From the NCBI GenBank assembly GCA_026995935.1, contig JALWNK010000030.1:1-51968 (forward strand): DNA of 51,968 nucleotides, in the 5' to 3' direction. This DNA is from Deltaproteobacteria bacterium. GTDB lineage: Bacteria; Desulfobacterota; Dissulfuribacteria; Dissulfuribacterales; QOAL01. The first letter of the stretch is position 1; each line of letters begins with the position of its first letter. Made by a program: the position numbers and the translations under genes. Under the pieces are notes generated by a model. The model had not been told where the DNA came from. It did not search any database and was given only the letters and a program-made list of their open reading frames with translations. This document shows positions 32,681-37,735 of this stretch, piece by piece.

Positions 32681-33208
32681 GTGACTCCTCAGAAGAGCTC
32701 CGGTAGTGACAAACGGCCTAGCTGGGACGAGTATTTCATGTCCATAGCAAGGCTTGTGGCCGGACGTTCAACCTGCCTCAGAAGAAAAGTGGGCGCAGTG
32801 CTTGTAAAGGGCAAACGAGTCCTTTGTACTGGCTACAACGGTGCACCTGCAGGGCTTAAGCACTGCCTGGAAATCGGCTGTTTACGGGAGAAACTGGGTA
32901 TCAAGTCAGGTGAGAGGCACGAGCTTTGCCGTGCACTCCATGCCGAGCAGAACGTTTTAATCCAGGCGGCCTATCACGGTATTGCCGTGGTGGATTCGGT
33001 TCTGTATTGCACCAATCTTCCCTGTTCCATCTGTACAAAGATGTTAATAAATGCGGGCATAAGGCGTATCTACTACGAGGAGGGCTATCCTGACGAGATG
33101 TCAAAGGAGATGCTCAAGGAGGCAGGAATAGAGCTTATAAGGCTTACTCCCGAAGCCGGCCAAAAGGAAGATAGCGGAGATACCAGTGTCAAAAAAATCC
33201 CCAACTAA
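32681..33208 (+). CDS. dCMP deaminase/ComEB-family cytidine deaminase
   Basis: A 175-residue zinc deaminase. [20 protein letters not shown] then [11 protein letters not shown] is the family start, which is why the GTG at 32681 is preferred over inner methionines. GYNGAPAG, the HAE zinc motif with catalytic Glu ([10 protein letters not shown]) and the PCSICTK cysteines are intact. It probably makes dUMP from dCMP, next to glyA, which supplies the folate for thymidylate synthase. The last 23 bases overlap the next gene. Confidence 0.9.
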
Positions 33209-34121
33209 TTCAAACAACGAGGAAAACGAAAAGATACTTCCCTGGCAAAGGCCAAAGCGCAAAGAGGAAGAGCCCAGGGTCCTTGAACTAGTAAGGAGAA
33301 TAATGGAGGATCCAAGCTACAGGCTTGCAGAGGAGGATCCTGATTTCATTAAGTCTCCAAGGGCCCGGGGGATAAGGCTTCAGCTGGACTATCTCAAGGT
33401 GGAGCTGAAGCTTCAGGAACTTGGCGTAGAGCACACCATAGTGGTCTTTGGAAGCGCAAGGATATTGGAAAAGAAGACGGCCCTAAAGAAACTGGAGGCC
33501 GTTCAAAAAAGGCTCAAGCGCGACGGGGAAACGGCTCGGCTTCTTGTTAAGCTGGCTACAGCCGAGAAGATGGTTGAAAAGAGCGTATTCTACGATGATG
33601 CCAGGGAGTTTGGCCGCCTTGTGGGAAAGAGCGGAAGGGGCCCGGAGGACTGCCGGGTCATTCTTATGACAGGAGGGGGACCAGGGATAATGGAAGCGGC
33701 AAACCGCGGGGCCTACGACGTTGGGGCAAAGTCCATTGGTCTTAACATCCAGCTTCCCCACGAACAGTATCCAAATCCATACATAACGCCTGGGCTCTGC
33801 TTTCAGTTTCACTACTTTGCCATGAGAAAACTGCACTTTCTCAACAGGGCTAGGGCCCTTGTGGTATATCCTGGCGGCTTTGGCACCCTGGATGAACTTT
33901 TTGAGACCTTGACCCTGGTCCAGACCCACAAGCAGGAGCCCATGCCCATAGTCATGGTTGGAAGGAGATACTGGAACAGGCTTATTGATTTTGAGTTCCT
34001 GGTGGAGGAGGGAAGCATTGCACCCAGGGACCTTGATATCTTCGCTTTTGCAGACAGCGCCCAGGAGGCATGGGACATCATACTAAACTGGCACAGAAAC
34101 AGGAAAAGACCCCTGTTTTAA
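33186..34121 (+). CDS. LOG-family/TIGR00730 Rossmann-fold protein, long form
   Basis: A 311-residue protein of the lysine decarboxylase-like (LOG) family. [20 protein letters not shown] and the nucleotide-phosphoribohydrolase motif [20 protein letters not shown] are intact. The first 80 residues are an added charged region not found in short LOG proteins. Start is GTG at 33186, inside the deaminase gene. Family members cleave nucleoside monophosphates at the N-glycosidic bond; the physiological substrate here is unknown. It ends the long plus-strand run, four bases from the convergent radical SAM gene. Confidence 0.88.
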
Positions 34122-34125
34122 GGCC

Positions 34126-35241
34126 TTATTCATAAGTAAGTGCCATATACATCTCTTTTTGAGGCTCTGTTGGGGCCGTTTTCGGAAACCTTCTTTGAAC
34201 AGAGTCGGCCATTAAGTAATCCAGGTGGCCAATGGAAGAGGGACACCACCCAAACACGTTTTCCCACACGTTCCATCTTTCCATACAAAGGTACGTGAAG
34301 CACTTTTCGGCCCCTGCGTCTTTCAGACACTTAAGCAGAAAGGAGTACATCTCCTCCCTGACAGGACGTAGGTATCTGAACTTGTTATCGTTCCCAAGTA
34401 CCATCTCCTGCGCAGTTATCCTGGAGGAGGGATAGTTGTTTTCTATTTTCTTTTTCATCTCAGGGTTAAACCTGAGGCTGCCAATGGATATCCATATGCA
34501 GTTTTCAGGATCTATTGCAGAAAAGACGGAACGGACAAGTTCTTCATAGGCCCTTTGCCAGCCTGGAAAGAGAATCATTGGGTCAAAATGGAGCCCCACT
34601 GGATAGCCTGACTTGGAGACAAGCTCCATGGCTCTAAGCCTATTATCAAGGCTTGCGGTGCCAATCTCCTCCTTCGCTATAACCTGGGGAGGGTTTAGTG
34701 TCCAGGAGACCACGGTCCTGCCCCCGTGGTCAATATCCAGAAGCGGTTCCACAAAGCCCCCCTTTGTCCTGAGTTTGAGAATGCAGTTTCTGAGGTCTTT
34801 AAATTCCTCAACAAGCTCCACGGCCACGTGGTTAAGGGGTGGAACAGCAAGGCTGTCTCCAAGCTCCCACGTCCCTATCCTGAACAGCCTCCAGGGCTGA
34901 ACGGAGGTCTTTTCCCTTATTTCCCTTATTATTGCCTTGGTGTCTGCAACCACGGTCAAGGTGGTATCCGTGAGATAATTCTGAAGAAAACAGTAGGTAC
35001 ATTCAAAGGGACAGTTGCTTATCTGGGAAATGACATGGGTGCTGCAGCAGATATAGCGGGGGTCAAGTGATGCACAGATGTGAAAGAGCTCTCCACGCTT
35101 TGGCGCCACAAAGAGGTGGCGTTTTCCCTGTCTGTAATCGGAGAGCCTTGGGCCTTGGCTGCTGATGTCGCTCTGGCCAAGACGTCTGGCAATCTTTGTG
35201 TTTTTCACCTCCGGGTGAATGGTTACACTTCGAAATCGCAT
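34126..35241 (-). CDS. Spore-photoproduct-lyase-like (SPL family) radical SAM protein
   Basis: A 371-residue radical SAM enzyme. The cluster cysteines are Cys77, Cys81 and Cys84 (SNCPFECTYCFLQNYL). GTWELGDSLAVPPL and VSWTLNPPQVIAKEEIGT match the SPL family. True spore photoproduct lyases repair UV thymine dimers in endospores; this genome context is not of a spore former, so the substrate is open. It is the 3' gene of a three-gene minus row with a ParB-domain gene (14 bases upstream) and a nucleosidase-glycosyltransferase gene. Little Shine-Dalgarno is visible before the ATG. It ends convergently with the LOG gene. Confidence 0.85.
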   Translation of the reverse strand: MRFRSVTIHPEVKNTKIARRLGQSDISSQGPRLSDYRQGKRHLFVAPKRGELFHICASLDPRYICCSTHVISQISNCPFECTYCFLQNYLTDTTLTVVADTKAIIREIREKTSVQPWRLFRIGTWELGDSLAVPPLNHVAVELVEEFKDLRNCILKLRTKGGFVEPLLDIDHGGRTVVSWTLNPPQVIAKEEIGTASLDNRLRAMELVSKSGYPVGLHFDPMILFPGWQRAYEELVRSVFSAIDPENCIWISIGSLRFNPEMKKKIENNYPSSRITAQEMVLGNDNKFRYLRPVREEMYSFLLKCLKDAGAEKCFTYLCMERWNVWENVFGWCPSSIGHLDYLMADSVQRRFPKTAPTEPQKEMYMALTYE

Positions 35242-35255
35242 CTTTTTTAGCCCAA

Positions 35256-36245
35256 TCAGAAGTAGGAAAGGATCTTTTTTATGCCCTCTTTTGTTTTAGC
35301 GCTGGAGATGGCATCCACAATATCAGAGAGCTCGGAAAGGTCAGAGACAGAGGCCGAAATGGTGACCTTCTTGTTCTCCAGGGTCTCATCCCATTTGACC
35401 AGGAGAGGGGAGTTTTTAAAGTAATCTTTTTGTATGTCATGAAGCTCCCCTTGGAGCCTGGTGAGTACAGGATATCTCATCTCTTTTACCATTTGCCTGA
35501 AAAGCCTTGTCCTTTGGTTCATGTCCATTTCGCGAGAAAAAATGTGTTTTATCTCCTCTTTTTCAAAAAATTCGTCTGCTGTTATTTTATCCCTTTTAAG
35601 TATGTCACTGATGTTGTCTGTTAGCTCGAGGAGAAGGCTTGCAGAAATGGAAATCTTGTTTTTTAACCGGATGATTTTTTCAAGGAGCAGTTTCGGTTGA
35701 TGGGTAAGGTTAAGGCACCTTTTAAGAGAAAGGTCCTTTTCATGGCAAAAACGCAACACCTCTTTTGGAAGGGTAGAGACGCGCAGATATTTTTCAAGCA
35801 GGCCCCCGAATGGCTGAAGCCCAAGCCCCCTCATTGCCAGATCCATTAAAAGGTTCTTTGGAAAGCCTGCTTCAGAAAGATGGTTCAGGAACAACGCCTT
35901 TGTGGCGCAGGTTTTTAGGTGGCCTGAGTATCTTGAAAGCAAGAGGAGCAAGACCTGTCTTCTTGTCATGTCCCCGGCCTTGAGCACTGGCACTTCGGTC
36001 AGACCTTTTTTCAAGGCCCATTTTAGACGCTTAAACCCGTCTATTACCATCAGTGCTCCCTCAATATGGTTTATTTTTGCTACAAGGATGGGGGTCAGAA
36101 TGGAATTTTCCTCAAGGCTCTGAAATAAAAGGGAGGTATCCCACACGGAAAGCTCCTCTAGGACCCTTGAAAAGTCAAGGGTTTGGTCAAGGCGCTTTGG
36201 GGCTATTACAGACGTTTTTTCAAAAGGAGGGGATGGTCTTTCCAC
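35256..36245 (-). CDS. ParB N-terminal-domain protein
   Basis: A 329-residue protein. A ParB/sulfiredoxin-type fold is seen at about 35-95: SLEENSILTPILV then VIDGFKRLKWALKKGLTEVP (67-86), the equivalent of the CTP-binding region of ParB. The rest is helical and Leu/Lys-rich with no helix-turn-helix I can name and no parA neighbour, so chromosome partition is unlikely. The start overlaps the glycosyltransferase gene by 40 bases, and the radical SAM gene follows after 14 bases. ParB-like domains also occur as nucleotide-binding or nuclease modules. Confidence 0.7.
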   Translation of the reverse strand: MERPSPPFEKTSVIAPKRLDQTLDFSRVLEELSVWDTSLLFQSLEENSILTPILVAKINHIEGALMVIDGFKRLKWALKKGLTEVPVLKAGDMTRRQVLLLLLSRYSGHLKTCATKALFLNHLSEAGFPKNLLMDLAMRGLGLQPFGGLLEKYLRVSTLPKEVLRFCHEKDLSLKRCLNLTHQPKLLLEKIIRLKNKISISASLLLELTDNISDILKRDKITADEFFEKEEIKHIFSREMDMNQRTRLFRQMVKEMRYPVLTRLQGELHDIQKDYFKNSPLLVKWDETLENKKVTISASVSDLSELSDIVDAISSAKTKEGIKKILSYF

Positions 36246-37735
36246 GATACCTCTTTTCCATTTTGAAGGTTTTCAAGTAGCTCCTTGAAGGTTTTTACAC
36301 CTTCAAGGTTTTTCCTCTTCCTGGCGCCATTATAGAGAATTGAGAGCCTTTTTATTATGGCCGTCCTTAAGATATCCCTCTTTTCAGGTTCTTCCTCGGC
36401 CTCAAGGGCAATGAGCAGGGCTGCCACCCTGAATCTGTCCATGGCCTCAAAGCGAGTTGAAAGCTGGTCCGGGTGGCCTCCATATTTTATGAGATCCGGT
36501 TCAGGGTTAAGGCCCACAGGTTTCCTTCCGCTTATTCTAAGCCACATCTCAAAGTCTTCACAGGCCGGAAACTCTTCCCTGAAGCAGCCAAAGCGTTCAA
36601 GGAGCCCTTTTCTTAAAAGTACACCAGAAGGGCTGATTGCGCACATCTCTATACTCTTTTGCCATATCCAGCCAGCCTCCTTCTCGTGGTGCTTGCACCT
36701 GTTTACCCTTTTCCCCCTTCTTATCCATATCTCTTCGCACTGTTCTATCTCAAAAAAAGGCCTCTTTTTCAAGAAGCGGAATTGGTTTTCAAGTTTTTTC
36801 CTTTTCCACTCATCATCCGAGTCAAGAAGGGCAATCCATGTGGATGAAGCAGTCCTTATGCCTGCATTCCTGGCAGCACCAACACCTCTGTTTTTTGAAA
36901 AGCGTATGATATTTACGCGTTTCTTTATATCTGTTTCTCTTCCAAGGACTTCCTCCACTGGTTGATCAGATCCGTCATCCACAACTATTATCTCCCTGGG
37001 CCTGTGACTTTGGTTGATGACGGATGAGACGGCACGTTTAATGAGTCCTGGGCGGTTGTGCACAGGAATTACAACAGAGACGTCATCTGGAAATGAGCTG
37101 GGATCAAGAAAGGACAATAACTTTTTTATTGACCTTCGAATATGGATGAGCGCCTTTTTAAACTGCTGCCTGCTTGAGGCAGAGCATCTATCAGCTGGTA
37201 TCTTTATTACGGAAAAAGGTATAGTGTGTTTCCGAAATATCCTGTGCTGAAATCCTGCCTCCATGTCGACAAGCGGCAAGATATTCGGATCGTGTCTGAG
37301 TAAGGGTTTCTCAAGGCTTTCTACGGCGGCCTTTTTTAAATTGATTTCAGGAGAAAGCGGAAAGGGCGGCTCTGTAAGACACCTTAACAGCGTCCCTTTG
37401 GTTTTGGTGTGTGAGGCCACAAGGACATGATTAAAGTAGGAGGTGTCTTTTTCCGTGTTTATGCCGCAGCCTCCCACATTTACGACAGCAAGGGGGTTTA
37501 GATACTTAAGAATCAGGCGGGCAGATTTTTCGCTCCATTCCCTGCCAACCCCAGTTACCACAAAGACAACCGAGTCTCTTTGATAGCTTTTCGCAAGGCA
37601 GGAGCTAATGCCGCTTTCAAGGCCCCTTGGGCTGATTACAGGGAAACCACATTCCTTTATGAAGTCTATGGGCAGCTCTTCCTTGAGGGCCGCGGTAAAG
37701 ACAAGCCTTTCTTCCTGAGGGTTGTTTGAAACCAC
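36206..37735 (-). CDS. Fusion of a nucleosidase-like domain with a family 2 glycosyltransferase
   Basis: A 509-residue cytosolic protein. Residues 1 to about 200 resemble the nucleoside phosphorylase/MTA-SAH nucleosidase fold: VFTAALKEELP, VVTGVGREWSEKSARLIL, VVNVGGCGIN and VDMEAGFQ (156-163). Residues 218 to about 430 are a GT2 glycosyltransferase: VVIPVHNRPG (221-230), IIVVDDGSDQ, NRGVGAARNAGIRTA, LLDSDDEW (303-310) and a later CEDFEMWLRISG. A helical tail follows. GTG at 37735 is the start, with AAAAGG just before. I know of no characterised protein with this architecture. The 3' end overlaps the ParB-domain gene by 40 bases. Confidence 0.82.
   Translation of the reverse strand: MVSNNPQEERLVFTAALKEELPIDFIKECGFPVISPRGLESGISSCLAKSYQRDSVVFVVTGVGREWSEKSARLILKYLNPLAVVNVGGCGINTEKDTSYFNHVLVASHTKTKGTLLRCLTEPPFPLSPEINLKKAAVESLEKPLLRHDPNILPLVDMEAGFQHRIFRKHTIPFSVIKIPADRCSASSRQQFKKALIHIRRSIKKLLSFLDPSSFPDDVSVVIPVHNRPGLIKRAVSSVINQSHRPREIIVVDDGSDQPVEEVLGRETDIKKRVNIIRFSKNRGVGAARNAGIRTASSTWIALLDSDDEWKRKKLENQFRFLKKRPFFEIEQCEEIWIRRGKRVNRCKHHEKEAGWIWQKSIEMCAISPSGVLLRKGLLERFGCFREEFPACEDFEMWLRISGRKPVGLNPEPDLIKYGGHPDQLSTRFEAMDRFRVAALLIALEAEEEPEKRDILRTAIIKRLSILYNGARKRKNLEGVKTFKELLENLQNGKEVSWKDHPLLLKKRL

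Follow-up and report, generated by a model that had tools for sequence, protein, structure and literature searches.

A radical SAM enzyme of the SPL fold, a ParB-like protein and a glycosyltransferase that are inherited together may form one modification pathway

What could a radical SAM enzyme, a ParB-domain protein and a glycosyltransferase do together in one bacterial operon? The question is raised by a compact locus at positions 34126-37735 of the window, the whole 51,968-nucleotide stretch of DNA that was analyzed. Open reading frame calling confirmed three minus-strand genes with the 40-base overlap and 14-base gap given in the initial annotation. They encode a fusion of a nucleosidase and a family 2 glycosyltransferase (GT2) (36206-37735, 509 aa), a ParB-like protein (35256-36245, 329 aa), and a radical SAM enzyme with the fold of spore photoproduct lyase (SPL) (34126-35241, 371 aa). 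The identities first given to these parts were borne out by Pfam, by profiles and, for the SPL and ParB folds, by AF2 models. Rfam and tRNA searches of the window gave no match, and promoter and terminator scans showed no excess over chance. SOS control of the operon was rejected, as no LexA-like site lies close to it and the window contains fewer such sites than shuffled sequence.

We surveyed the three gene families in 198 genomes of the window genome's phylum, representing 78 families. All three are present in 99 genomes (97 as scored, and 99 after adding short ParB-like genes that the full profile had not detected), and all three are absent from 79. By family, the trio is complete in 41, absent from 31 and partial in 6. 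Pairwise Fisher tests gave p values between 1e-35 and 1e-41 with genomes as the unit and between 5e-16 and 3e-18 with families; both counts ignore relatedness above the family level. The genes form a contiguous triad in 31 genomes, a pair with the glycosyltransferase elsewhere in 34, and lie entirely apart in 24. This co-inheritance, even where the genes are scattered, indicates that they probably serve one modification pathway.

Other species of the window genome's genus and family show synteny at this locus, as do distant phyla. The order glycosyltransferase-ParB-radical SAM is found again in Zixibacteria, KSB1, Caldithrix, Binatia and further deltaproteobacterial lineages, and only the glycosyltransferase, ParB-like and radical SAM families are broadly conserved at the cross-phylum loci. 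Co-occurrence and cross-phylum synteny together rule out chance adjacency. The initial annotation had proposed a joint system, to be abandoned if the genes were adjacent only in close strains or if the radical SAM gene usually occurred alone. Neither is the case: distant classes and other phyla also have the three genes side by side, more than that proposal had asked for, and the radical SAM gene is seldom found without the other two. Scattered copies, usually one per genome, have only housekeeping neighbors (e.g., purC, dusB, and clpX), none of which hints at an acceptor or a sugar donor. Searches of phages, viral contigs and plasmids found no close relative, the five plasmid matches being remote relatives of SPL, and a mobile or phage origin was rejected on these negative searches.

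The radical SAM protein matches Pfam SPL (5e-24) and Radical_SAM (9.6e-07). Its AF2 model (pLDDT 90.6) aligns with SPL structure 4fhf over 310 residues (VIA Z 35.1, rmsd 2.0), and the SPL fold is accompanied by the CxxxCxxC motif (C77, C81, and C84; 34990..35013, minus strand), conserved in 59 of 59 sequences of alignment A5. In addition to the full-length fold and this motif, the protein has D129, K160, E192 and other residues in common with SplB (PF20903, TIGR04070). However, it falls far under the cutoff of the SPL equivalog TIGR04070 (105 versus 400 bits), and, unlike SplB, its family is co-inherited with a glycosyltransferase and a ParB-like protein. The position of the catalytic Bacillus-type H-donor (Cys140/141) is occupied by Glu, E126 in the window protein (34864..34866, minus strand), in 59 of 59 A5 sequences, although the A5 conservation of E126 and of an added HFDP motif is partly built in, as those peptides served as collection-scan patterns. 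Both show no variation in the A2 set either, which was gathered without those patterns. The relay Tyr99 of SPL is mostly replaced by I, V or F (Tyr in 5 of 59 A5 sequences; F85 in the window protein). Four further cysteines absent from SplB are invariant in A5 (59/59) and were not part of the scan patterns: C56, C65, and C66 (35044..35076) and C319 in a CME motif (34285..34287), all encoded on the minus strand. Given that the defining residues are missing, a genuine Bacillus-type SPL is ruled out. Long N-terminal "fusions" of the gene in GC-rich genomes proved to be spurious open frames, except for one degenerate case (L213).

These replacements bear on the chemistry. SPL mutants C141A or Y99F use one SAM per turnover (PMC3742179). 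The cysteine-tyrosine relay responsible for SAM regeneration is missing here, so the enzyme is expected to consume SAM, with 5'-deoxyadenosine as a released product. Alignments to the C140A/S76C chain 4rh0 and to SplB match C56 to Ser76 of Geobacillus SPL. We take it to occupy the position of Cys74, the alternative H-donor in C. acetobutylicum SPL (PMC5368176), which would make this cysteine, conserved in 59 of 59 sequences, a candidate H-donor.

The ParB-like protein consists of an N-terminal ParB/Srx domain with an HTH region (residues 1-200; 35646..36245, minus strand) and a C-terminal domain (residues ~200-329; 35256..35648, minus strand) that is helical and includes a helix-strand-strand-helix unit. 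The single-sequence ParB_N match is below the Pfam cutoff (E 0.008), the family profile matches solved ParB/Noc chains at 9e-20, and the AF2 model shows the ParB/KorB/Noc fold across residues ~1-225 (VIA Z 8-9). By profile and predicted structure, then, the protein has the ParB_N and HTH fold of ParB partition proteins, with the nucleotide-binding fold of chromosomal ParB, Noc and KorB. The CTP-site motifs (GERR and EN.QR..N..E) are incomplete in the window protein: the G.RR-type motif is partly retained as GFKR, but N..N..E is lost (Y106, T112, and T115), whereas most full-length relatives retain N, N, and E. Unlike the chromosomal proteins, it has no ParA partner at the locus, and a real ParA-ParB pair is encoded on contig C17 of the same genome, ruling out a genuine chromosomal ParB.

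A further difference is that several lineages dispense with the ParB and HTH domains, which are lost in Binatia, in genomes G082, G117, G149, G177, and G203, and in others. The constant part is the C-terminal domain only, which is common to full-length and short forms, with R257, P259, and E290 near-invariant; in one genome the radical SAM protein carries a fused remnant of this domain. Neither Pfam nor PDB gave a sequence match to it, and the VIA comparisons, which hardly probe this region, gave no fold match. Its helix-strand-strand-helix order is that of the ParB dimerization domain, a likeness of topology only.

The GT2 domain (fusion residues 206-509; 36206..37120, minus strand) matches Glycos_transf_2 at 2.4e-30, is soluble, with no transmembrane segment, and conserves DDGS, DSDD, and ED-x-x-WLR motifs, consistent with a GT-A nucleotide-sugar site (DxD-type) and ED base. 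At one locus (L051, family f12) the order is radical SAM-GT4-ParB-like, with a GT4 gene between the same pair. A second SPL-like subfamily (SPL2) sits in operons with a WbsX-type glycosyltransferase. Thus, glycosyl transfer recurs with unrelated glycosyltransferase families.

The nucleosidase half (PNP_UDP_1/MTAN-like; fusion residues 1-205; 37121..37735, minus strand) goes unrecognized by Pfam alone (0.094). PNP_UDP_1 is matched by nine of nine homologues (best, 2.4e-08), and the domain profile matches MTA/SAH nucleosidases at 1.7e-06. E20, E159 (VDMEAG), and D182 are invariant and correspond to the catalytic Glu, Glu, and Asp of PNP/MTAN. The domain resembles Pfs/MTAN in superfamily motifs and in these acidic residues, but it is short, fused to a glycosyltransferase and carries N-x-G-x-C-G instead of the usual GSAG, and its subclade, in the window genome's order, occurs solely next to SPL-like systems or fused with them. 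At five loci, a related nucleosidase gene lies directly 5' of the radical SAM gene of SPL2; in Fusobacterium the two are fused (623 aa). The unusual N-x-G-x-C motif is common to the SPL2-associated nucleosidase and the window domain. SPL2, found with its nucleosidase in the window genome's order and in the Fusobacterium fusion, thus resembles the window system, sometimes with a glycosyltransferase nearby, but it lacks the ParB-like protein and the extra CC cysteines. Within family f1, SPL2 and the trio occur in different genera.

Among trio carriers the nucleosidase is limited to the window genome's family and one relative. It is missing from most, so a nucleosidase step is not general, contrary to the core role first assigned to it. 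The suggestion that it removes a base from nucleic acid is not supported either, in that the domain resembles small-molecule MTA/SAH nucleosidases and not a DNA glycosylase. Its restriction to the window genome's order and its pairing or fusion elsewhere with another SPL-like enzyme make clearance of the adenosine product a more likely role than stripping of a nucleic-acid base.

We propose, at a probability of about one half, that the three genes encode one obligate radical SAM/adaptor/glycosyltransferase modification pathway. We infer that the SPL-fold enzyme would generate a 5'-deoxyadenosyl radical and activate a C-H bond of the acceptor, consuming SAM and releasing 5'-deoxyadenosine, and that the soluble GT2 would then move a sugar onto the product. 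The ParB-like protein would act as an adaptor whose C-terminal domain is the part that the pathway needs, and the ParB and HTH part, where retained, may add nucleotide-dependent or DNA-linked control. Radical SAM enzymes are inhibited by 5'-deoxyadenosine (PMC8102628), and in the window lineage the fused nucleosidase may hydrolyze this compound. Alternatively, the pathway product may be adenosylated, with the nucleosidase taking off its adenine as happens in hopanoid or futalosine synthesis. A small molecule or envelope component is the leading acceptor, at somewhat less than even odds, ahead of nucleic acid and protein, which are equally tentative. Counting against one pathway are eight genomes that have the radical SAM and ParB-like genes without GT2, and a ParB domain would be unexpected in a purely metabolic pathway. 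A radical SAM step is combined with a glycosyltransferase, and in some cases a nucleosidase, in the mycofactocin, hopanoid (HpnH/HpnG/HpnI) and arsenosugar pathways, but these use different radical SAM subfamilies, have no ParB-like partner and act on known substrates. Full-text literature searches found no description of the three-gene set, in agreement with the initial annotation.

Should the acceptor be DNA or RNA, the ParB-like protein would place the SPL-fold enzyme on it, a base would be functionalized, and the glycosyltransferase would cap it with a sugar. This is possible but doubtful. Almost the entire radical SAM protein follows the fold of an enzyme that acts on DNA bases (Z 35), and most full-length ParB-like members combine the ParB/Noc fold and HTH with G.RR and N..N..E nucleotide-site motifs. 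Against this, several lineages have lost the ParB and HTH part while retaining the rest, the proteins are not notably basic, the nucleosidase is of small-molecule type, and the usual single copy in a housekeeping setting, with none in phages or viral contigs, is unlike known DNA glycosylation systems. A specific version, in our view unlikely, is chromosomal housekeeping glycosylation across several phyla, not a phage weapon, in which a clamp derived from ParB, or the C-terminal remnant of one, would bring the SPL-fold enzyme to DNA or RNA, the enzyme would functionalize a base or sugar of the nucleic acid, and GT2 or GT4 would attach a sugar. Less probable still is adenosylation analogous to HpnH/HpnG or MqnE/MqnB, with addition of 5'-deoxyadenosyl by the radical SAM enzyme, removal of adenine by the nucleosidase and extension of the remaining sugar. 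PNP-superfamily nucleosidases do recur beside or fused to SPL-like enzymes, and the better fold matches outside SPL include an MqnE structure (VIA), but that similarity is shared by radical SAM enzymes generally, and most trio genomes lack a dedicated nucleosidase.

Light-independent repair of DNA lesions by an SPL variant, using C56 as the Clostridium-type cysteine with the glycosyltransferase as bystander, is very unlikely. The position of C56 favors it, but the glycosyltransferase is co-inherited as tightly as the ParB-like protein; E126, H218, D220, and three further cysteines are non-SPL features; and the low equivalog score and the lack of a nearby LexA-like site also argue against repair. 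Anti-phage defense, raised in the initial annotation, is hardly credible. Defense systems do include modification enzymes and proteins with ParB-type domains, but PADLOC detected no system (one weak domain match), searches of phages and viral contigs gave no close relative, and neither the usual single-copy housekeeping context nor the remote plasmid matches point that way. Of the modification pathway as first sketched, the joint system is supported; nucleosidase base removal and defense are not.

Retention of the trio in roughly half of the phylum's sampled genomes, and in members of KSB1, Zixibacteria, Binatia, Caldithrix and further phyla, whether or not the genes are neighbors, is the signature of one pathway. 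Such a pathway would add an SPL-fold reaction outside spore DNA repair and would assign a ParB-like protein a function other than chromosome partition.

Three minus-strand genes encode a nucleosidase-GT2 fusion protein (509 aa; 36206-37735), a ParB-like protein (329 aa; 35256-36245), and a radical SAM protein related to spore photoproduct lyase (SPL) (371 aa; 34126-35241). An ORF check bore out the coordinates of the initial annotation, with one 40-base overlap and one 14-base gap. A MarC-family gene lies upstream of the trio. Downstream and convergent with the radical SAM gene is a plus-strand LOG-family ("lysine decarboxylase") gene (33186-34121), and Marinimicrobia loci likewise have LOG-family homologues close to their radical SAM gene. 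The GC content of the trio (0.45-0.49, versus 0.50 for the window) is slightly below that of most neighboring genes, and its base composition does not look foreign. The trio is real and conserved and, so far as we searched, undescribed.

Related species, both within the genus and in the wider family, share this gene order. Profiles of the three protein families were searched against one set of 198 genomes from the phylum, and the radical SAM protein was detected in 114, the ParB-like protein in 108, and the glycosyltransferase (GT) in 109. As scored, 97 genomes have all three and 79 have none. Two apparent absences of the ParB-like protein are short genes missed by the full profile, bringing the complete set to 99/198, and several other partial genomes are draft assemblies with a gene at a contig end (e.g., G111, G224, and G227). 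Pairwise Fisher p values, which are indicative as the species tree is not modeled, range from 1e-35 to 1e-41 by genome and from 5e-16 to 3e-18 over the 78 taxonomic families, of which 41 are complete, 31 empty, and 6 partial. Two of these families (f24 and f25) include members with all three genes beside members without any. The triad is contiguous in 31 genomes; another 34 have the ParB-like gene paired with the radical SAM gene and the GT at a different site, and in 24 each of the three genes lies apart from the others. That the genes are inherited together even when they are not neighbors is the most telling sign that they share a pathway. Adjacency is not limited to close strains, nor is the radical SAM gene usually found alone, and the case for one joint system, as first proposed, is strong.

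Among the best 80 of at least 575 matches in a species-genome scan, a lower bound with phyla named from record titles, the radical SAM subfamily occurs in Zixibacteria, KSB1, Caldithrix, Binatia, Acidobacteria, Marinimicrobia, Nitrospinae, and Omnitrophota. The first four have the GT-ParB-radical SAM order, and Acidobacteria and Marinimicrobia have the ParB-like/radical SAM pair. Clustering of all neighbors revealed no other broadly conserved partner. Where the trio genes are scattered, their neighbors are housekeeping genes (names read from translations): purC is directly upstream of the ParB-like gene in 13 loci (e.g., L050, L143, L258, and L263), dusB is near the GT gene in 5, and a tig-clpP-clpX cluster precedes the GT gene in 4 (L229, L235, L238, and L241). 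A GH57-like gene is also upstream of the GT gene in these last four loci. Given such neighbors, with searches of phages and viral contigs negative and the plasmid hits limited to remote SPL relatives, the role in defense that had been suggested is unlikely.

The radical SAM protein matches the Pfam SPL family (5e-24) and scores 105 bits against the NCBIfam SPL model, which requires 400. Its AF2 model (pLDDT 90.6) superimposes on the SPL structure with Z 35.1 and rmsd 2.0 over 310 residues; all other matches have Z ≤15.1. In an alignment of 59 relatives, also aligned to SplB, Glu takes the place of the SPL hydrogen donor Cys141, and most have Ile, Val, or Phe where SPL has the relay residue Tyr99. 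SPL that loses Cys141 or Tyr99 does not regenerate SAM and uses up one SAM in each turnover (PMC3742179). Cys56 aligns with Ser76 of Geobacillus SPL, the residue mutated to Cys in 4rh0. We take this position to be that of Cys74 in Clostridium acetobutylicum SPL, the hydrogen donor in that enzyme (PMC5368176). Cys56, Cys65, Cys66, and Cys319 are all invariant in the radical SAM alignment and might bind a second cluster. Conservation of E126 and HFDP among the 59 relatives is partly built in, as both, unlike the cysteines, were used as search patterns; both are also invariant in a 13-sequence set gathered without those patterns.

As a single sequence the ParB-like protein has a weak ParB match (0.008), and its family profile matches ParB and Noc at 9e-20. 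The model (pLDDT 93) has a ParB/KorB/Noc fold across residues ~1-225. The C-terminal ~130 residues, for which no sequence relative was found, end in a helix-strand-strand-helix arrangement, the topology of the ParB dimerization domain. Most full-length members keep the nucleotide-site residues G.RR and N..N..E; the window protein lacks N..N..E. Short forms (about 168-212 aa) with the C-terminal half only occur in Binatia and several lineages of the phylum; therefore, nucleotide binding or cutting by the ParB domain, invoked initially, is not the common core. In one genome a degenerate remnant of the C-terminal half is fused in frame to the radical SAM protein (L213, 1557-3071).

The GT2 half of the fusion protein is unambiguous (DSDD and ED motifs). 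Among genomes without the GT2 gene, one of family f12 has a GT4 gene (Pfam "GT4-conflict" match) between the radical SAM and ParB-like genes (L051, 6744-9971). The radical SAM variant at this locus lacks C56, C65, and C66 and keeps the CME cysteine. A WbsX-type glycosyltransferase is present in operons of SPL2, a second SPL-like radical SAM subfamily in the window's taxonomic order. Thus, enzymes from unrelated families repeatedly supply a sugar-transfer function. For the chemistry of the trio, which we infer, nucleic acid is a possible but not favored acceptor.

Residues 1-205 of the fusion protein form a PNP/MTAN-type nucleosidase (9/9 homologues match PNP_UDP_1). Its profile matches MTA/SAH nucleosidases, and there is no variation at the acidic residues E20, E159, and D182. 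Among the 198 genomes, this dedicated nucleosidase is confined to the order, with matches <1e-50 only in the window and three relatives. An MTAN-like nucleosidase gene directly precedes the SPL2 gene in five loci of the order (L052, 4217-6060; L055, 5980-7801; L056, 2274-4119; L061, 8200-10133; L062, 5699-7597) and shares an N-x-G-x-C motif with the window domain. In L056 and L062 the SPL2 gene is followed by genes for an SDR, the WbsX-type glycosyltransferase, and another radical SAM protein. The genera sampled from family f1 carry SPL2 or the trio, not both. A single 623-aa protein of Fusobacterium vincentii joins the nucleosidase to SPL2. The fusion frame (L275, NZ_CP084075.1, around 1192726-1193514) lies in an unannotated record titled plasmid though chromosome-sized. 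Thus, a nucleosidase accompanies SPL-like radical SAM enzymes in three architectures. By analogy with hopanoid and futalosine synthesis, in which adenine is stripped from an adenosylated product, the nucleosidase could alternatively act on such a product of the trio. The simplest reading is that it would remove the adenosine product of the radical SAM step, because 5'-deoxyadenosine is an inhibitor of radical SAM enzymes (PMC8102628).
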